IMG/VR virus record: IMGVR_UViG_3300025030_000404
Coordinates: 1 to 24,548 of that record
Reading direction: 5' to 3' (one strand)
Length of the DNA: 24,548 nucleotides
Source: a virus
Below are positions 6,875-24,176 of the stretch, in pieces; positions within the stretch are counted from its first letter, which is position 1, and the number at the start of each line of letters is the position of its first letter. Below the pieces are notes generated by a model. The model saw only the letters and a program-made list of their open reading frames with translations. It did no database searches and was not told the DNA's origin. The translations under genes were made by a program, and so were the position numbers.

Positions 6875-8266
6875 CTAGTAGGCGGAAAGGGGTTTCTTGG
6901 TGCCACCGCCGCCCTTGCTTGCACCGATCTTGCCAAATCCTTTTGTCACTTTGGGCGCAACGGTTGCCGCTGAATCAACAGCATCGTTGTAATTGCTGAT
7001 GGTCCTATCGGCTTCCTGCTCGTAGTATTTCAGCAGTTGGCGAATGGCCGTTCTTGCCCCGCTTCCGCCCCCGCTGACAGACTGAAGCAAGTTCTGCTCG
7101 TAGTTGGATACTGCGCCAGGGCCAATAACAGAAGCGCGAAGTTGCCCCGCCCCTGCCGCTGCCAGCTTTTTAAACAGTTCGGCCTCTGATGTCGCGGGTA
7201 TGTCAAAAATGCCGGATACAGAAGCAAGCGCGTTGCCCTTCAGCCCTCCAGCATTGCCGCCGTCAAGGAGTTGCACCATTTGGGTGATGCGCGGCTTGGT
7301 CGCCTCTGCCGTCCTCGCCTCTCTGCGGAGTTTGGGGAGGTCTTTGACGGCTTCCCTTGCAACAATGGGGTCCGTCTTGTCGGTGGCCGGGGCAGCGGGT
7401 TTATAACGTGGCGCTTTTTTGGTGCCAGTCAGTTTCCCGCTCGCATCGTAAAGCTCTGTCACCTCTGTATCGCCATCGTTATACTTGCGGTCAAATGGTT
7501 TACTAGGTGCCTCTTTCGGCTTGAAGTGAAACGTTGACTTGCTGGTTTCAGGGTCAAGAACGTTGTAGCCTATCACATCGCCCGTTGTCGGGTCTTTGAT
7601 TGCAACCACAAGGTTGTCGTCCTTGGTGCTGAAATCATCCAGTGTCATGTTCTGGACAATGGGGTTATCAGGCTGAAAACTCTTGTAACCGTCAAGAAGC
7701 TTTTGCGCTAGCCCTCTTCCGGCTTCCCCGCCCTTGGACACCAGCGGCGACAGGGTTTTTATCATTTCCTTGCCCTGCTCGAAATCGGCTTTCTTTTTGA
7801 GAAATCCTGCGCGGTCGCCGCCCCCTGCCATGGTCTGCATTTCCATTTCGGCAAGCTTGGCATCAAGGTCTATCATGGTGGGGAGTTGCCCCTGCGCTGC
7901 CGTGTTCCCCTGTGACGCAAGCCCTGCGGTAACTTTCAGCCGGTCCATCTGAGAGGCAGGCTGTTGAACAGGACCAAGGCCGGAAAGCGCCGATTCCTGC
8001 CCCGGTTGTACCGGCCCCATGCCTGTCGGTTCAGGGTAGAGGTATCCGCCCTTGGCGTTGGACAAGGCGTCCCTCAGGGCGAGCTCGTCGGTGTTCTTGC
8101 GCTGTGCCCCCTGTAGCTGCAAATCGGCAAGGGTGCGCCGTGCTGCGCGGTCGGTCGCTTCATCGGCATACTGCTGGTCTTGCCGCTTCAGTTGCGCCAG
8201 AGTGCCGAGCGTGTTGGTGAGGTTGGCTAAGCCCTGATTTGTAGACGCCCAAGGGTCCATTGCCAT
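6875..8266 (-). CDS. DNA ejection/internal virion protein (P22 gp20-position)
   Basis: 463 aa. ATG 8264-8266 is chosen because it overlaps the upstream stop as TAATG and has GGAGG eight bases upstream; the TTG further up would sit on that ribosome site. It is rich in Gln and Ala, with long helices (residues ~15-55 and ~290-420), no cysteine seen, and no membrane helix, fitting an internal virion protein. Its length is close to that of P22 gp20 (about 470 aa) and it sits in the same slot between the gp7-like and gp16-like proteins. The exact role in ejection is inferred from context. Confidence 0.65.
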   Translation of the reverse strand: MAMDPWASTNQGLANLTNTLGTLAQLKRQDQQYADEATDRAARRTLADLQLQGAQRKNTDELALRDALSNAKGGYLYPEPTGMGPVQPGQESALSGLGPVQQPASQMDRLKVTAGLASQGNTAAQGQLPTMIDLDAKLAEMEMQTMAGGGDRAGFLKKKADFEQGKEMIKTLSPLVSKGGEAGRGLAQKLLDGYKSFQPDNPIVQNMTLDDFSTKDDNLVVAIKDPTTGDVIGYNVLDPETSKSTFHFKPKEAPSKPFDRKYNDGDTEVTELYDASGKLTGTKKAPRYKPAAPATDKTDPIVAREAVKDLPKLRREARTAEATKPRITQMVQLLDGGNAGGLKGNALASVSGIFDIPATSEAELFKKLAAAGAGQLRASVIGPGAVSNYEQNLLQSVSGGGSGARTAIRQLLKYYEQEADRTISNYNDAVDSAATVAPKVTKGFGKIGASKGGGGTKKPLSAY

Positions 8267-12146: not shown

Positions 12147-13364
12147 CTACCACCTTCCCGGAGCAAAGCAGATTGACGTATCGTCCTCAAAGTCGTGCAA
12201 CTCATCCTTCATCATCTTTGCCTTGCGCTCAAAGTTCTGCTGCTCTGCCAAGGTTGCCCCAAACTTGGGGGCGAGGTCGGAAGTCAGCGCGGCGACGATG
12301 GCCTTGAGACAGTCAGCCGGCGCGGCTATCACATCTTCAAGGTTTAACAGCGTGGGGGTTGCCTGTTTGTACTGGAAGTTGAGCACGTTCCCTGCCAATG
12401 TGCTTACGGGCCATGCGTGGAGCAGGGTGTTACCAAGAAGCGGCTCGTGCGCCACATTAACAACTTCGCTTGCGGCGCTCTTGATCGGGTACATGTTGTA
12501 TTCCGACACAGGCACCACGTTGCACGACCTCTCATCCCCGGTCAGATACTTCAGCCGCACATCCTTGATTTCCATGGGGCGCTGGATCTTGGCCGAGTAG
12601 ACAAACACCGCATTACCCGCTGCCGCTGCGCTTGGCAGTGCCGCCGATATCGCCGTACCGCTAACCTCGCTTACGGTCGCCCAATGAAGCGCCCCGGAGT
12701 CCAGCACTATGCCGATGTTGTAGCCGTCCACAATCCCCGCCGCGCTGGTCAGGTTAACGGTGGTATCCGTAGCCGCCGCATCCGTCGCTAGCGTGGTCTG
12801 CACGTAGGTTGCTGTTGCGTGGTCGCCGGTAGGCCCGAGCAGATAACCCGCCGTGCTCTTGTCGAGAATGAGGGAAGCGTGCCGCCACGTCCAGAGGCCG
12901 AGAATCTGCGCTTGAAATGTCTTGAGGGTGATGTTGAAGGTGCGGATGAGGGAATCAACCTGGAACCCTTCCAAGCCAGTGCCAACGTCGATTGACTGCA
13001 GATTTTCTAGAGCCTCGGTCAAAGCGTCGGCAACGTTGATGGAGAAGTCGCCGGTTGTCTCCGCTTCCTCCCCCTCGGCATCCCCGCCCCATACAAGGTC
13101 GTTGCCAATAAGCGAGTCATCAGCCGCAAGCTTGATCTTAACGGAGTACGGCCCGCCATCGGGTGGGGTGAATGTAACAAGGTAGTAGGCCGTGAGGTCT
13201 GCCGCTGCGCTCGGCTGCTCGACCAAGAATTGCTTAGTGCCATCGGTGACATCGGCGCTGAACTGTTGAGCGGAGAAGTCATACAGCAAATCCCCGTCAA
13301 ACAGTTGCGCGTATACAGCGAGACTGCCAAGCCCCTTGTCGTACGGTAGGTAGATGCGGGACAT
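12147..13364 (-). CDS. Head-tail connector (P22 gp4-like) with extra N-terminal domain
   Basis: 405 aa from ATG 13362-13364, directly after the upstream TAG, with GGAGG eight bases upstream. Residues ~110-405 fit the connector proteins found before gp10 in podoviruses: a helical stretch (VDSLIRTFNITLKTFQAQ, LWTWRHASLILDKSTAGYLLG), a beta segment with GIVLDSGALHW, then KIQRPMEIKDVRL, and a C-terminal helix ending in DDTSICFAP. Residues 1-105 form a separate beta-sandwich-like domain (YDKGLGSLAVYAQLFDG, FTPPDGGPYSVKI) that ordinary gp4-type proteins lack. It therefore looks like a fusion. It probably binds the portal ring and recruits gp10. Confidence 0.7.
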   Translation of the reverse strand: MSRIYLPYDKGLGSLAVYAQLFDGDLLYDFSAQQFSADVTDGTKQFLVEQPSAAADLTAYYLVTFTPPDGGPYSVKIKLAADDSLIGNDLVWGGDAEGEEAETTGDFSINVADALTEALENLQSIDVGTGLEGFQVDSLIRTFNITLKTFQAQILGLWTWRHASLILDKSTAGYLLGPTGDHATATYVQTTLATDAAATDTTVNLTSAAGIVDGYNIGIVLDSGALHWATVSEVSGTAISAALPSAAAAGNAVFVYSAKIQRPMEIKDVRLKYLTGDERSCNVVPVSEYNMYPIKSAASEVVNVAHEPLLGNTLLHAWPVSTLAGNVLNFQYKQATPTLLNLEDVIAAPADCLKAIVAALTSDLAPKFGATLAEQQNFERKAKMMKDELHDFEDDTSICFAPGRW

Positions 13365-16486: not shown

Positions 16487-16514
16487 TGATTACTCCTTTT
16501 AAAAATGTTAAAGT
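16486..16514 (+). promoter_or_regulatory. Possible promoter for the antisense HNH gene
   Basis: TTGATT (16486-16491), a 17-bp spacer and TAAAGT (16509-16514) lie 27 bp before the HNH start codon. Both hexamers match the sigma-70 consensus at four positions, in a short AT-rich stretch. It overlaps the start of the cement gene on the other strand. Confidence 0.35.
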
Positions 16515-16540
16515 GTTTCCCTAACTTATGGAGGCACTAT

Positions 16541-16996
16541 ATGTCTAAAACATGTACACGGTGTAAAATTGAAAAACCTCTTGACGAATTTTCTCGGCAA
16601 ACTCGCACAAAAAGCGGCTACAGGGGAGAGTGCAAGTCTTGTGCAAAGCTGTATGCGCGGTCCGAAAGCGCCAAAGCATCTCAGCGCAAAACTCAAGCCA
16701 AATACATGCAGACAGAGCATGGTAAAACAAAGAGCCGCGAAAAATGTGCAAGGTACCGCAAAAAACAGCTATTCAAAGATTCTGTCCAAAAATCGAGAGC
16801 TAAATACCCTGAGAGAAGATCTGCGCAAATAGCCCTCTGGAATGCTGTCCAGAGTGGTGGCGTAACCCGGCCAGATGTTTGCTCATTGTGCAATTGCCTT
16901 TGCATACCAGAAGGCCATCATTTCGACTACTCTAGGCCGCTTGACGTTATCTGGCTGTGCAAGATGTGTCATGAGGCAGCACACCATGTGAGTTAG
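16541..16996 (+). CDS. HNH homing-type endonuclease inserted antisense in the head operon
   Basis: 151 aa. ATG 16541 is chosen because GGAGG lies seven bases upstream; the 12-residue upstream extension lacks a site. The N-terminus has a zinc finger (C5-x-x-C8, C31-x-x-C34). The middle (~45-95) is very basic, with repeated K/R-x-x-x-R helices for DNA contact. The C-terminus has C114-x-x-C117 and HH126-127-x-D129-Y-S-R-P-L...WLC140-x-x-C143-H144...HH148-149, a zinc-bound HNH/beta-beta-alpha nuclease core. It is the only plus-strand gene inside the late region, more AT-rich than its neighbours, and ends four bases from the convergent gene. These are signs of a mobile intronless homing endonuclease. 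Confidence 0.82.
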   Translation: MSKTCTRCKIEKPLDEFSRQTRTKSGYRGECKSCAKLYARSESAKASQRKTQAKYMQTEHGKTKSREKCARYRKKQLFKDSVQKSRAKYPERRSAQIALWNAVQSGGVTRPDVCSLCNCLCIPEGHHFDYSRPLDVIWLCKMCHEAAHHVS

Positions 16997-18759: not shown

Positions 18760-18978
18760 TTAATCCTCCACGTCCATCTGCATCAGGGCATCAAGCCCCA
18801 ACAAAACCCCCTCCCGGATCGCCGCTTCCCTGAACGTCGCTTCCATCGAGTCCCGGAGTGGGGATTTCTCCTCCTGCCCCTTGCGGAATGTCGCCAGGCA
18901 CCGGAACACCTCCTGCGTTGTCGCCTGCGACTTCCAATCCCTGAATTCCTCCCCCGTCAACGTTGTTTCCAGTACCAT
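18760..18978 (-). CDS. Small protein overlapping the portal 3' end
   Basis: 72 aa from ATG 18976-18978 with AAGGAG seven bases upstream. It reads with normal protein composition: LTGEEFRDWKSQATTQEVFR, then LATFRKGQEEK and a C-terminal helix REGVLLGLDALMQMDVED. Short acidic-helical proteins with an L-T-x-E-E-F-R-x-W...T-Q-x-V-F start are common right after portal genes in phages. Their function is unknown. It overlaps the last 188 bases of the portal frame, and the Gly/Pro-rich tail of the portal is confined to that overlap, which suggests this frame is the older one. Confidence 0.75.
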   Translation of the reverse strand: MVLETTLTGEEFRDWKSQATTQEVFRCLATFRKGQEEKSPLRDSMEATFREAAIREGVLLGLDALMQMDVED

Positions 18979-20869
18979 CTGCGCTCTCCTTCGCCGCTCC
19001 CGGCTGTTTGGTTTGTTCCTGCGCTGCCGTTAAGCTCTCGTAAGCCGCCTTGTAGTATTCCAACTGCGGCCCCAGTTCGGCCGCCTCTGCCTGCGCCAAC
19101 TTCAGAACGCCATCGGCGCGGGTCGTTTCAATCTGCGCCTCTATCAATGCAATCTCCGCATCCTGCTTCTGCGCCAGGAGCTGCAGTTTGGCGGCCTCAT
19201 GCTCACCCTTGATTTGCAGTTCTATCATCTTCGGATCAGGTGGCTGTTGCATTGACGATTTCTCCCCCTCTTTGGGCTGGATCTCGTCTATGTTGTCGAT
19301 GCGGAGTGACTGAAGGTATCTGCGCGTTACCTGCCATGCGTTGACACCCGGAGCCTGTCCCGCTTCCAGCAAAGCCCTTGCCCTTGCCTGCTGCTGAATG
19401 TCCGTTCCCTGCGCGGGGTCCGCCACCGGGATAACGTCAACGTCTTTGCCGTTGTAGTCCTCGCGGAGTGCAACGTTTTCCTCATCCATTACCCGGTAGT
19501 AGTACTCATCGTCCATGTGCAGGCGGTTGAGGCGGGCCAGCTTCTTGTACTCGCTTTTGAGGGACCGGTATACGCGCTTATGGATGCCGTTGAACACCTT
19601 CATCCCTTGCTCAATACGGGCAAGCATGGTGCCTACAGGCTCATTCGGTCCGGCCTGTTCACCGGTCATAACATCGGCCACAGAGGAAAGGGTTTTAGCG
19701 GCTTCGACCATGAAGCCAAGGAGGTTGAACAGGACGGCGCTAGGCTCTTTGGTGGGGAGGGGGAAGAATCCCTTGCTCAGTTCTTCGGGGCTGGCGTCGG
19801 TCTGTTTCCATTCGCCGGGGCTAAACCTGTACTGTCCACCCTTGATCTTGATGCCCCTGGACACCAGGCCACCCTGCACGTTAGCAAGGGTGCCAGCGTC
19901 AAGGAGTTGGTTGATGTTGGTATTGATCGCCTCATTGAGCGGGAACAGGAGTTGGCCAAAGCCCACGTCATAGAATGAGCCGTCAAAGGAGGGTAGAAAA
20001 GAGAACTTGGTGAAGTACTGCACCGGTTCAATGCGCTGCACCTTGCCGCCGTTCACGTACACGCCGTCCTCATCATAACGGGCGTAGATGCGCACCACTT
20101 GGCCGCTTGCCTTGTGGACCGTCACCACGTATGGCTCTTCGTAGCCGTCCTCGTCAAAGTCGTGCCACAAGTGCTGCTCAAGGAACATCTCGGCCTTCTG
20201 CTGTTCCTCTTCAAACTCGTAGTTTAGCGGCACATCAGTAAACAGGCCCGACTGTACCCGCTCGTAGATGTCGTTGCGGTAGAGGAAAACCCCTTGATCC
20301 GTCACCCGCCGCGCATCGTCTACGCTCTTGGCGTCGTTGTGGACCACAATATCAAGCGGCTTGCGGATGCAGGAAACGTTGCGCTGGCGCAAGTTGTCAA
20401 AGTAGGTCTTTTTGAACAGCGTGCCAATGATGGGAAGCATCATCAGCAACCGGTCGGTGTCCTCTTCCCACTCCACCATTTCCTCTAGCACCTGATAGCT
20501 CATGTGTTTGCTGATGCGGTCGGCGCGGTTCTGCTTCATGCCGTCTTGGTCGCGGCCTACAACCTTGCCCTTGACAACCTCGTTGCCCCGGATGATTTCA
20601 GGGTAGGCTCTGGCGTGAAACTGGATCGCAGCGGAGGCAATGAGCGGATACTTGACGTTGGCCGCGTTGTTCCAGGGCCATGTCTTGACATCGGCAACCT
20701 GCATGGCAAGTTCTAGGCCGTCCTTGGTCTTTTTCTCCCAATCGGAGCGGCTGACTAGGTCTTGCTCCCAATCCGCCACCACCTGAGCGCCCAAACGGTT
20801 CAGCACGTCCTCGCTGAACTCCCCGGCCATGTTCGGCATGTCCAGCCATTGCTGCAGTTTCAGGGCCAT
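18791..20869 (-). CDS. Portal protein (P22 gp1-like)
   Basis: 692 aa from ATG 20867-20869, one base after the TerL stop, with AGGAGG inside the end of terL. P22-type portal landmarks are a helical N-terminus with WPWNNAANVKYPLIASAAIQ then FHARAYPEI, the wing/stem (LLMMLPIIGTLFKKTYFD), FGQLLFPLNEAINTNINQLL, and GEQAGPNEPVGTMLARIEQG followed by the crown helices. Residues ~545-620 form a long charged helix (the barrel in P22). The last ~62 residues (from about 631) are Gly/Pro/Asp low-complexity and overlap another gene. It forms the 12-mer ring at the vertex for DNA packaging, docked by TerL. Confidence 0.9.
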   Translation of the reverse strand: MALKLQQWLDMPNMAGEFSEDVLNRLGAQVVADWEQDLVSRSDWEKKTKDGLELAMQVADVKTWPWNNAANVKYPLIASAAIQFHARAYPEIIRGNEVVKGKVVGRDQDGMKQNRADRISKHMSYQVLEEMVEWEEDTDRLLMMLPIIGTLFKKTYFDNLRQRNVSCIRKPLDIVVHNDAKSVDDARRVTDQGVFLYRNDIYERVQSGLFTDVPLNYEFEEEQQKAEMFLEQHLWHDFDEDGYEEPYVVTVHKASGQVVRIYARYDEDGVYVNGGKVQRIEPVQYFTKFSFLPSFDGSFYDVGFGQLLFPLNEAINTNINQLLDAGTLANVQGGLVSRGIKIKGGQYRFSPGEWKQTDASPEELSKGFFPLPTKEPSAVLFNLLGFMVEAAKTLSSVADVMTGEQAGPNEPVGTMLARIEQGMKVFNGIHKRVYRSLKSEYKKLARLNRLHMDDEYYYRVMDEENVALREDYNGKDVDVIPVADPAQGTDIQQQARARALLEAGQAPGVNAWQVTRRYLQSLRIDNIDEIQPKEGEKSSMQQPPDPKMIELQIKGEHEAAKLQLLAQKQDAEIALIEAQIETTRADGVLKLAQAEAAELGPQLEYYKAAYESLTAAQEQTKQPGAAKESADGTGNNVDGGGIQGLEVAGDNAGGVPVPGDIPQGAGGEIPTPGLDGSDVQGSGDPGGGFVGA

Positions 20870-20870
20870 G

Positions 20871-22397
20871 TCAATATCCTCCTACGCGGGAACGGCTTTC
20901 GTCTCCACCGTCATTGCAATAATCGTCTTCGCTGTCGCGCTTCTCTGTGCATATCAGTGCCAACACAGCCGAGTCACCCCTGTCAGGTGAACGACCTATA
21001 CGCTTAACAAGGTCGTCTTTGCTTTCTATCTGTATGCCGCGTGGCGTAAGTTTCCACCGGGGGGCGGTCAGGTCAGCTAGCAACTTCGGACAAGGAGGTA
21101 AAGCTAAATCATCACCGGTCTTGGGGTCCAATGCTTCGCGCATAGACCACCAGTGTTGGGCGCGGAGATTTACAAACTTGAGCTTGCCCGTTTTGTCCGT
21201 TCTCGTGGCTTTCTCGGCCCAATTGACGGCTATGACGTGAATGTTATTGTCGTTGAGATGGTCGTAGACGCTGGAACCTACCCCAATAACGTCAACGTGA
21301 ATCGGCGCGGCGTCCCTGGTATTTGCCAGAATCAAAGATGCAGACGTTGAACCATCCGGGGTCTGTGCCCCTGGGTAACAAGTCTGCTCCGCAAACCACC
21401 AGGCGTGACGCGGCGTAATAATAGTTTCGTCTCTGCCACCCCTCGCAATATCCGCCCCCACCGAGTCCATGGTATTGCGCCGTTTGCCTTCTGGCGTCCA
21501 CCTCTCCATTGCTGCCTCTATCCACGCTGTAGGGATAGTCTGGAACGGGTCATCGTCTGTTCCAGCCGTAAAGTCACCGTTAAGCATCTGTGAGCGCAGC
21601 GGTTCAGGAAGTGCCTGTAGCGTTGACTCGTAATCTGTAGCCATCAGATATGCGTTGTCTTGAATGCGAGAGGGAATGAACGTGCGAGACTTGGGCTTGA
21701 TGCTTTTGCCAGCGTGGATAAAGCGCGAACCATCGGCGCACTCAACCTCTTTGCCGTCAATCATGGCATACCAGCGCAACTCCCCCGGCTTGGCCGGGTT
21801 GGGGTGTTTCTTGTCCAGCCATGGGCCCCAAAACTGTTTAACCCATTGCCCGTCTGAATCTGTAGGGGGGTTGCCTGTGCATATCACTCGGCATCGCTGC
21901 CCCTTCTTTGTGGTGCGGAGCCACCCGAGCAAGAATCTGAATTGTGATTCGAGAAAGTGGCATATCTCATCAAACCCTAGCAGGTCATGAGGCCTGCCTT
22001 GGTACTTGATCTCATCCCCACTGTCTTTGACACTGCCAAATTCCATCTGTCTGTCAGGCATACGCCATACTTTCTCTTGGCCGTTGTACCCATCGCGCCC
22101 GCCTAGTATCTCGGTTATGCGGTCAAGTATGCCTTGGAGCTGTGTTGATTCTCTGCGGAGTATGAGAGATTTGACGTGCTGGGTAAGGGAAGCACCAATA
22201 AGCAGGTCAGACTTGCCGCCGCCTGCAGCGCCACCATAAAAAAGAATGTCGGCTTCCGACTCAAGGGCTTCAGTCTGCGGCCCAGGAAGGGGAACCCATA
22301 CAGGGGCATTTGCGGAAAGTAGGGCGTCTATCTCTGTCCGTTCATCATCGGTGAGGTAATCCAGCAGTTCGGAGATTTTGGCAAGTTCGCCGCTCAT
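20871..22397 (-). CDS. terL: Terminase large subunit
   Basis: 508 aa, overlapping terS by four bases (ATGA). ATPase domain: Walker A GGAAGGGKS at residues 55-63 and Walker B LLGFDE at 139-144, followed by the coupling motif CTGNP at 173-177. Nuclease domain: D316 (GADIARGG), D369 (VDVIGVG) and D475 (RGDSAVLA) are the likely RNase-H-like metal ligands. The full domain set is intact and the length is usual. It pumps and cuts concatemeric DNA at the portal. The downstream portal starts one base after its stop, with its ribosome site inside terL. Confidence 0.95.
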   Translation of the reverse strand: MSGELAKISELLDYLTDDERTEIDALLSANAPVWVPLPGPQTEALESEADILFYGGAAGGGKSDLLIGASLTQHVKSLILRRESTQLQGILDRITEILGGRDGYNGQEKVWRMPDRQMEFGSVKDSGDEIKYQGRPHDLLGFDEICHFLESQFRFLLGWLRTTKKGQRCRVICTGNPPTDSDGQWVKQFWGPWLDKKHPNPAKPGELRWYAMIDGKEVECADGSRFIHAGKSIKPKSRTFIPSRIQDNAYLMATDYESTLQALPEPLRSQMLNGDFTAGTDDDPFQTIPTAWIEAAMERWTPEGKRRNTMDSVGADIARGGRDETIITPRHAWWFAEQTCYPGAQTPDGSTSASLILANTRDAAPIHVDVIGVGSSVYDHLNDNNIHVIAVNWAEKATRTDKTGKLKFVNLRAQHWWSMREALDPKTGDDLALPPCPKLLADLTAPRWKLTPRGIQIESKDDLVKRIGRSPDRGDSAVLALICTEKRDSEDDYCNDGGDESRSRVGGY

Positions 22398-22885
22398 TTG
22401 CCTGCGCGTTTCTTGGCTTCGTTAAGGAGGGCGGCTATACGTGCAGAACGCTGAATGTCGTTGAACTCAAGAGGCCCACCACCGGGGCCGGTTATCTCGG
22501 TTTCTTGCTTGTCCCGATACTCGGCATGGTTCTTGAGCCAAAAGATTGCCCCTGTAGCGTTCTTCGACCACAAAAGCTGTTCCTCGACAAACATTTCAAC
22601 TTTTTGCTTCGCCTTTTTAACAATGTCAGAAAATTGACCTTTTTCTGCATACTCGCAAAGCCCCTGCCTGGAAAGATCCAGATGCATTGCAAGCCCCATG
22701 ATGGTGTAAGGGCGGTTCTGGTAACGAACAGTGGACATGGTGCAAGCACCCTTGTCATCGGTGTGCTCCGTCACCTTGTCCTCCCAACACGAATCAAAGT
22801 ATTCCTCTATCTTCGCACTGAGTTCTTCCGGTGTCGCAAACTTGGGCGGCCTGCCTACCGGTTCGCCTGTCGGCTTCCTTGCCAT
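22394..22885 (-). CDS. terS: Terminase small subunit (P22 gp3-type)
   Basis: 163 aa from ATG 22883-22885 with GGGGAG upstream. The N-terminus is basic and Pro-rich (RKPTGEPVGRPPKF). Residues ~15-30 form a helix (EELSAKIEEYFDSC). A helix-turn-helix-like part, YTIMGLAMHLDLSRQGLCEY, sits near 60-79. The oligomerisation helices run about 85-125, with ATGAIFWLKNHAEYRD, a motif recurrent in small terminases of this type. The end is Lys-rich. It recognises the packaging site and hands DNA to TerL. It is the first protein gene after the tRNA/structured-RNA locus and has no closer promoter visible. Confidence 0.85.
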   Translation of the reverse strand: MARKPTGEPVGRPPKFATPEELSAKIEEYFDSCWEDKVTEHTDDKGACTMSTVRYQNRPYTIMGLAMHLDLSRQGLCEYAEKGQFSDIVKKAKQKVEMFVEEQLLWSKNATGAIFWLKNHAEYRDKQETEITGPGGGPLEFNDIQRSARIAALLNEAKKRAGK

Positions 22886-22917
22886 CCCTCTCCCCTTATG
22901 CTCTACCTCGAATGTGT

Positions 22918-22981
22918 ACCCCTACCGGTAACGCTCCGGCACCTCCCAACCTGTGTTGGGGCTCTCTTTGAGCTAAGGGGT
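22918..22981 (-). ncRNA. tRNA-like cloverleaf element lacking canonical loops
   Basis: On the minus strand ACCCCT (22976-22981) pairs with AGGGGT (22918-22923) as an acceptor stem, followed by TA as in tRNA positions 8-9. Then come GCTC/GAGC (4 bp, 5-nt loop), CCCAA/TTGGG (5 bp, 6-nt loop), AGGT, and GCCGG/CCGGT (5 bp, 7-nt loop). Every stem is complete, but the D-loop lacks GG, the second arm is not a 7-nt anticodon loop, and the T-loop is AGCGTTA, not TTCRA. It could be a decayed tRNA, a tRNA mimic, or an RNA/DNA signal near terS. The fold is seen; the function is not known. Confidence 0.45.
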
Positions 22982-23034
22982 CTTACAAGCCCGATGCCTA
23001 AGCAGCGCGGGAACGGTGTTAACTGCTCAATATG

Positions 23035-23110
23035 TGGCGGCGGGGGCTGGACTTGAACCAGCGACCGAGGGATTCAAAGTCCCTTACCCTACCAACTGGG
23101 CGACCCCGCT
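23035..23110 (-). tRNA. tRNA-Gln (anticodon UUG), CCA encoded
   Basis: A 76-nt cloverleaf on the minus strand. The D-arm is GCCC with loop AGTTGGTA, the anticodon arm AGGGA-CTTTGAA-TCCCT gives anticodon TTG, the variable loop is CGGTC, and the T-arm is GCTGG-TTCAAGT-CCAGC. CCCCGCC, discriminator G and an encoded CCA finish it. Six acceptor pairs are sound; the first (A1-C72) is a mismatch, in line with the weak first pair that glutaminyl-tRNA synthetase favours. It lies about 200 bases downstream of a strong promoter and upstream of terS, so it is likely a phage tRNA made with the late transcript. Confidence 0.9.
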
Positions 23111-23125
23111 ATACTCTGAACTGCT

Positions 23126-23311
23126 GCCGGCCTTTCCCGGCGGTCAACCTGGTGTCTCACGCTCACTGCCAGATAAGGACGGTCGGCTACTGGTGGAGGG
23201 TCCATGCCGACACTCGGAGTTGAGGGAGATGAACCCTTAACGGCCACCGCCCGAGCATACGCCGGCCCCCTTCCTGCCGACCGGGAAGTCCCAATCCACA
23301 GCAGGAGGGGG
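23126..23311 (-). ncRNA. Structured leader of four consecutive hairpins upstream of the tRNA
   Basis: Between the minus promoter and the tRNA, with no gene, are: CCCCCT(T)CCTGC paired with GCAGGAGGGGG (23266-23311, one bulge, inner GGG/CCC stem); CTCGG/CCGAG (23213-23255), enclosing AGGG/CCCT with a 7-nt loop; GTCGGC/GCCGAC (23182-23211); and GCCGG/CCGGC with a 6-nt loop (23126-23141). The stems are adjacent and do not conflict. This may be a processed leader, remnants of other tRNA genes, or a regulatory or packaging-related RNA. No known RNA family was recognised. Confidence 0.4.
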
Positions 23312-23319
23312 ACGGCGAC

Positions 23320-23348
23320 ATTGTAGACTTTCATTAGGGGAGTGTCAA
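23320..23348 (-). promoter_or_regulatory. Sigma-70 promoter for tRNA and late operon
   Basis: On the minus strand TTGACA (23343-23348), a 17-bp spacer and TACAAT (23320-23325) give an 11/12 match to the consensus. Transcription would start near 23313, directly at the first leader hairpin, and run through tRNA-Gln into terS and the head genes. Confidence 0.75.
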
Positions 23349-23462
23349 TAAAAACTTATGGGGAGAAAGAGCACCCTTGGGGCGCTATCAAGGTAGGGTC
23401 GCGCTGCAACGGCTCCACCGTCTCCCTGCATCTGCCACTGACGGGCACTCAAAAAAAACTGG

Positions 23463-23491
23463 TTGACACGGCAAGATAATAATATTATTAT
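23463..23491 (+). promoter_or_regulatory. Sigma-70 promoter with palindromic operator for the early genes
   Basis: TTGACA (23463-23468), a 17-bp spacer and TATTAT (23486-23491). The perfect 16-bp palindrome ATAATAATATTATTAT (23476-23491) covers the spacer end and the whole -10 box, so a dimeric repressor bound there would block it. It is divergent from the late promoter 115 bp away and leads to the zinc-ribbon gene at 23528. Confidence 0.7.
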
Positions 23492-23527
23492 TTGGGCACG
23501 GTATTTCACGACACTGAGGGAGGAACC

Positions 23528-23659
23528 ATGGAGCCTAAAAAAGCAATGAAAACACAGTGCAAGTGCTTGTGTTGTGGACACGAATGGGAGTCAAGGGTGG
23601 AACACCCGGCGGCTTGCCCGGCATGTAAGCGCTACGACTGGAAAAAGGGGAAACGGTAA
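23528..23659 (+). CDS. 43-aa zinc-ribbon protein
   Basis: ATG 23528-23530 has GGAGG/AGGAA upstream and is the first gene after the plus-strand promoter. It reads MEPKKAMKTQCKCLCCGHEW and on, with C13-x-x-C16 near GHEW and a second pair CPAC before a basic end (KRYDWKKGKR). This is the usual zinc-ribbon layout of tiny phage and conjugative-element regulators. Its stop overlaps the next start as TAATG. It may bind DNA or a protein partner; no partner is known. Confidence 0.7.
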   Translation: MEPKKAMKTQCKCLCCGHEWESRVEHPAACPACKRYDWKKGKR

Positions 23660-23864
23660 TGAACGAGTTGATTGCCATCAACAGCGGCACCATCGGCGGG
23701 GAAACTGTGCAGACAGTCAACGCAAGGGACCTGCACTCTTCCTTGAAAGCAGGCAAGACTTCACGACATGGATCAAGGCCCGAATCGACCAGTACGGGTT
23801 TATCGAGGGGTCCGACTACCTGCTCCACAAAACTGGGGAGCAGCTCCCCAGCGGAACCAAGTAG
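23659..23864 (+). pseudogene. AntA/AntB-type antirepressor, frameshifted and truncated
   Basis: The start MNELIAINSGTIGGETVQTV then NARDLHS matches the N-terminus of AntA/AntB antirepressors. Right after the S codon (near 23744) the homologous continuation, FLESRQDFTTWIKARIDQYG then FIEGSDYLLHK, is found only in the -1 frame, ending at TAG 23862-23864. One base lost in the TCT-TCC run explains it. The family normally goes on past this point, so the gene is also cut short. Intact family members oppose phage repressors after induction. This copy is probably inactive unless the loss is a sequencing error or frameshifting occurs. Confidence 0.8.
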
Positions 23865-23960
23865 GAACTTTCAGCGTGACCATGCGAGATGGTGGCGCAG
23901 TGGTGAAGGGAAAAACGAAACGGTTTTAGATGTTTAACTACCCCAAAGGAGGGAAGGAAG

Positions 23961-24176
23961 ATGAGCACTGTGGCATACCCGAAAGGGAAGGTTTTGGTGG
24001 TTGACGACAGTGTACGAATGGTCGGTTCGGCGATAGGTTCACTAATGGCTATGGCATGTTCCGCGCTCCCCATTCTTACAGAACCGGAGCGGCTGTACCC
24101 GCCCAAGGTCTACCCAGAAAATGTGCGCCACCAAGGAGCCAAAGAACGGGCGCGTCGGCTCAAACGCATGGCGTAG
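23961..24176 (+). CDS. 71-aa early-region protein of unknown function
   Basis: ATG 23961 has GGAGGGAAGG upstream. The N-terminus MSTVAYPKGKVLVVDDSVRM is followed by a short hydrophobic stretch (GSAIGSLMAMACSALPIL, about 22-39) that is barely long enough to be a membrane segment, then PERLYPPKVYPENVRHQGAK and a basic end. No family is recognised. It follows the antirepressor remnant by ~95 bp that hold no clear gene. Confidence 0.55.
   Translation: MSTVAYPKGKVLVVDDSVRMVGSAIGSLMAMACSALPILTEPERLYPPKVYPENVRHQGAKERARRLKRMA

Follow-up and report, generated by a model that had tools for sequence, protein, structure and literature searches.

A stable hairpin at a predicted transcript 5' end and a tRNA-Gln gene upstream of the terminase genes of a virus fragment

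Introduction

Stem-loops at the 5' ends of bacterial mRNAs, such as that of ompA, are a familiar device, and it is well established that they stabilise the transcripts they begin. Several phage systems are also relevant here, namely tRNA genes carried in or near structural operons, the pRNA of phi29, which is a structured RNA close to packaging genes, and the put RNAs of phage HK022. A put RNA is made up of two stem-loops in about 70 nt, and the promoter of putL is located immediately before it (PMC9378689).

The window analysed here, a 24,548-base virus fragment, contains a leader of terminase genes that shares one or more properties with each of these systems. As with ompA-type stem-loops, a stable stem-loop at or near the predicted 5' end of the transcript precedes an untranslated leader; in the window, however, the leader contains a tRNA, the transcription start is a predicted one and the stabilising effect is putative. 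Like putL, the leader has stem-loops directly after a phage promoter and a long operon downstream, but its first hairpin alone takes up about 55 nt, the second supported hairpin lies about 73 nt away, and the leader, for which neither Rfam nor a blastn comparison with phages gave a match beyond chance, belongs to a packaging rather than an early operon. The tRNA resembles other phage-borne tRNAs in being an ordinary tRNA-Gln with an encoded CCA on the operon strand; it differs in sitting between the promoter and terS, an arrangement found in none of the relatives checked. Finally, the leader shares with phi29 pRNA its proximity to packaging genes, whereas the window has a TerS/TerL pair of the BPP-1 type, the leader has no Rfam pRNA match, and it is not conserved with the terminase, since the relatives of terS and terL tested lack it. 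The first-pass annotation had offered a packaging RNA as a long shot, and that reading finds no support here.

Results

A leftward unit on the minus strand runs from a promoter through a leader of about 200 nt to tRNA-Gln(UUG), terS, terL and the portal gene. Its sigma-70-type promoter (TTGACA-17-TACAAT, 23320-23348, minus strand) matches the consensus at 11 of 12 bases, and the promoter spacing places the predicted transcription start near 23313. A divergent promoter, TTGACA-17-TATTAT (23463-23491, plus strand), which also matches 11 of 12 bases, faces the rightward unit. These are the two promoter-like sites in 22400-24000, compared with 0.4 ± 0.6 in shuffled sequences. A strong promoter ahead of a tRNA/terminase operon had been proposed from the sequence, and the near-consensus match, with terS and terL downstream on the same strand, confirms it. 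The small terminase subunit is encoded at 22394-22885 (minus strand; PHROG 606, E 1.4e-28) and the BPP-1-like large subunit at 20871-22397 (minus strand; PHROG 979, E 8e-42); the latter is 52-58% identical to TerL of Limnohabitans phage DC33, phage zth2-2 and Bordetella phage BPP-1. About 430 nt from the predicted start to terS are untranslated, including about 150 nt between the 3' end of the tRNA and terS. Because the window is a 24.5-kb fragment, transcription may also enter the unit from farther upstream.

The tRNA beside the leader, which had likewise been pointed out earlier, was identified both by ARAGORN and by Rfam. It is a tRNA-Gln with anticodon TTG and an encoded CCA (23035-23110, minus strand), and its RF00005 score of 61.4 bits (E 2.8e-11) passes the gathering cut-off of 29. 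The tRNA is intact, with an A-C mismatch at the 1-72 pair and G73. An unpaired 1-72 position and G73 suit glutaminyl-tRNA synthetase.

The predicted transcript opens with an imperfect stem-loop of about 23 pairs, hairpin 1 (23261-23316, minus strand). Its folding energy is -41.7 kcal/mol compared with -25.4 ± 2.9 in shuffles (z -5.7), and in a scan of the contig on both strands it ranks first among 4082 windows of 60 nt by z as well as by energy. In the same scan the minus strand reaches -41.7 and the plus strand -33.2. Since the transcribed strand folds better and the stem contains three G-U pairs, hairpin 1 fits an RNA structure better than a DNA inverted repeat. Within a 600-nt transcript begun at 23313 its core pairs form with probabilities of 0.83-0.98; the four pairs at the base of the stem are at or ahead of the predicted start and possibly are not transcribed. 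The first-pass annotation had hairpins beginning at the predicted transcription start and described a structured RNA leader between the promoter and the tRNA/terminase operon. The first point agrees with the positions found (hairpin 1 from 23316, start near 23313), and the stem-loop is significant at a +1 predicted from the promoter match. Of the second, a non-coding leader that is truly structured at its 5' end and precedes a tRNA-terS-terL unit is supported.

Hairpin 1 is the sole clearly non-random element of the leader. The 205-nt leader as a whole has a z of -3.6, mainly because of hairpin 1; the remainder (23258-23112) gives -1.6 in the transcribed sense, where 15 of 200 shuffles fold equally well, and -0.45 for the opposite strand. 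Perfect stems of at least 5 bp number five in the leader against 5.5 expected in shuffles, none reaches 7 bp, and the counts at 5, 6, 7 and 8 bp are each near or under those of shuffles. A long, imperfect hairpin interrupted by many 1x1 mismatches (23123-23187, minus strand) is moderately above chance, with a z of -3.2 in a window chosen for it; in the 60-nt scan, 23184-23125 has a z of -3.96 and ranks 20th of 4082. Inside it, the GCCGG/CCGGC stem at 23141-23126 is an alternative fold. The perfect 6-bp stem GTCGGC/GCCGAC with an 18-nt loop (23182-23211, minus strand; local z -2.0) has a length met at chance density and competes with the fold at 23187-23123. Thus, of the four perfect or near-perfect hairpins originally reported, hairpin 1 is confirmed and the hairpin at 23187-23123 is retained in moderate form, while the rest are at the level expected from shuffles. 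The several stems seen at first are real, yet they are expected from GC-rich sequence. Background folding of GC-rich DNA would mostly account for the weaker hairpins that lie from hairpin 1 to the tRNA, and likewise for a multibranch structure that follows the tRNA ahead of terS and had been called tRNA-like (22905-22985, minus strand; z -2.4).

Coding potential in the leader had been described as absent. It is low overall; one possible ORF of 23 codons, read from the sequence (ATG at 23258, TAG at 23187, minus strand), nevertheless has a Shine-Dalgarno-like AGGAAGGGGG within the 3' arm of hairpin 1. This ORF might encode a leader peptide or might have arisen by chance.

Relatives of the leader were sought by similarity, by structure and by gene neighbourhood. 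The Rfam search suggested by the first-pass annotation returned the tRNA and no other family, at gathering as well as relaxed thresholds (E<=10), all other matches being far under their family cut-offs. When the leader was compared by blastn with phages and plasmids, only chance matches were obtained. Viral and genome contigs supplied TerS relatives at 33-64% identity; we also collected TerL relatives at up to 61% identity and further viruses from annotated records (BPP-1-like, Acidovorax, Acinetobacter, Limnohabitans and methanogen viruses). No leader-like DNA was found among the TerS, TerL and portal (about 40% identity) relatives tested, and folding the 500 nt ahead of terS in 15 relatives gave nothing comparable in place and energy. 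Similarly, ARAGORN found no tRNA beside terminase genes at the loci of TerS, TerL or portal relatives, the sole tRNA there being a tRNA-Met of one contig (L128), about 0.9 kb upstream of its terS, and the Rfam tRNA model had no match in eight whole virus records. In the DNA fetched for the portal relatives there was no terminase akin to that of the window, and a search of viral contigs with the structural protein encoded at 12150-13364 found no relative. The leader appears to be a singleton, and the phage a mosaic with no near kin, in the collections searched.

Discussion

We favour, at about even confidence, the view that the leftward packaging/structural operon begins with this stretch as its untranslated 5' leader, which would carry a 5'-terminal hairpin and a tRNA excised by RNase P. 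RNA polymerase would start near 23313 and produce a transcript that opens with the very stable hairpin 1. This hairpin would protect the 5' end against RNase E and against loss of its pyrophosphate, and may aid the polymerase across the untranslated stretch ahead of terS. The tRNA-Gln, an ordinary accessory phage tRNA, would be released by RNase P and 3' processing, an excision that would also split the transcript into a short leader RNA and the message for terS. We favour this account because promoter, +1 and hairpin are in register, hairpin 1 lies far outside the shuffles, its core stem forms in a long transcript, and a real tRNA, terS, terL and portal follow on the same strand. We infer the stabilising function of hairpin 1 from its position alone. 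Since no terS or terL relative tested has a similar leader, any selection on the leader is putative. The leader has a real hairpin at its predicted 5' end and is otherwise unremarkable and unconserved; its role is probably the usual one of an mRNA leader, protective or regulatory. If so, it is a further example of a phage operon leader that begins with a hairpin and contains a tRNA. Its main use would then be as a caution, as chance gives neat series of hairpins in GC-rich DNA and the comparison with shuffles alone singles out the real one.

An explanation by chance would extend this caution to hairpin 1, which could itself be functionless in non-coding, GC-rich DNA that folds well. The near-random folding and the expected stem counts in the rest of the leader are consistent with this idea, as is the lack of conservation in the relatives, phages and plasmids searched. 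However, hairpin 1 outranks every other scanned window by z as well as by energy, and it is located exactly at the predicted start; we regard this explanation as unlikely.

Hairpin 1 might instead act together with the next hairpin as a cis-acting antitermination RNA of the HK022 put kind, binding the very polymerase that transcribed it so that terminators along the long operon are ignored. A strong stem-loop at the predicted +1 followed by a moderate one, and some 430 untranslated nucleotides on which Rho would otherwise act, point in this direction, and it is the position of hairpin 1 that would suggest a put-like action on the polymerase. Against this, the two adjacent stem-loops within about 73 nt that characterise put are not seen, the two supported hairpins being separated by 73 nt (hairpin 1 spans 23316-23261 and the next begins at 23187). 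The leader matches no Rfam family and, in blastn, no phage record beyond chance, no homologue is available for checking conserved residues, and put is known from the early operons of lambdoid phages. We therefore consider a put-like element rather improbable. Should hairpin 1 act on RNA polymerase, protein-free antitermination would extend past lambdoid phages.

Packaging sites are often found just upstream of terS, and hairpin 1 is an inverted repeat between divergently transcribed units. It could thus be a DNA site, either for the terminase (cos or pac) or for a regulator of the divergent promoters. The better folding of the transcribed strand argues for RNA instead; searches for repeated protein-binding sites of the TerS type gave only short two-copy matches, and likeness to the lambda cosN core (23310-23321) is at chance level, with 7 matches against 3.7 expected. 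A DNA site is accordingly doubtful in our judgement. The more exciting readings of the leader are speculative. One of them would be a cis-acting RNA of a kind not yet described in phages, perhaps an antiterminator that needs no protein and differs from put in sequence; made at the start of the packaging operon and released by tRNA processing, it would control transcription of the structural genes. We hold this reading to be decidedly improbable.

The leader had also been read as a graveyard of several tRNA genes, which would have been acquired together with tRNA-Gln. Such remains would be in keeping with the adjoining real tRNA, and phage tRNAs are often clustered, but tRNA-Gln is the only one found. 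The Rfam tRNA model at E<=10 gives no second match across 22880-23520, with no relics in 23316-23112 or in 22985-22905, and there is no T-arm motif in register. Neither Rfam nor ARAGORN recognises a tRNA in the fold at 22985-22905. As the relatives tested also lack a tRNA beside their terminase genes, this origin is most improbable. Equally remote is an attenuator, in which hairpin 1 would hold the ribosome-binding site of a leader peptide encoded by the 23-codon ORF, and translation of this ORF would remodel the hairpins farther on: the Shine-Dalgarno-like sequence is suitably spaced from ATG 23258 and the stop codon falls within the third stem, but no terminator follows the ORF, it has no single-amino-acid codon bias and no homologue, and ORFs this short are common by chance.

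Additional observations

MetMV-like viruses, whose hosts are methanogens and methane-oxidising archaea, carry a different, conserved structured RNA of about 190 nt. It lies directly ahead of a terS gene whose product is 57% identical to TerS of the window. It was located at L023:2457-2664 (MK170447, MetMV), L126:2645-2852, L032:378-567, L176:3543-3733 (minus strand) and in L179. The six aligned sequences represent three distinct variants. Three pairs keep their pairing through changes on both sides, and two pairs are disrupted in some of the six. This RNA has no Rfam match. Its covariance model (R1) matches MetMV-like viruses and neither the window nor other terS relatives; at full sensitivity the best match in 22380-24000 of the window scored 0.8 bits. 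The MetMV-like RNA is unrelated to the window leader and has no bearing on it. Record MK170447.1 carries the RNA twice (7249-7438 and 66378-66567), 59.1 kb apart, and a similar contig is 58.8 kb long; this circular 67.8-kb record probably holds a duplicated end arising from assembly redundancy.

In the window, 18791-22885 is a mosaic packaging module, with a TerS like those of methanogen and GTA-like viruses and a TerL like those of BPP-1-like phages. The portal protein resembles those of a set of viral contigs in which no related terminase was present in the DNA fetched. Another viral contig with a TerS-TerL pair related to that of the window contains an int-alpA RNA (RF02996, 56.7 bits) at L033:976-1040 (plus strand). 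Limnohabitans phage DC33 (PQ492659, L020) has Inoviridae in its taxonomy line; its 39-kb genome encodes a BPP-1-like terminase large subunit, and it is therefore a tailed phage. Finally, an ORF of 163 amino acids in the window (16505-16996, plus strand), HNH-like as judged by eye from its translation, breaks up the leftward structural genes, a placement as for a mobile homing endonuclease.
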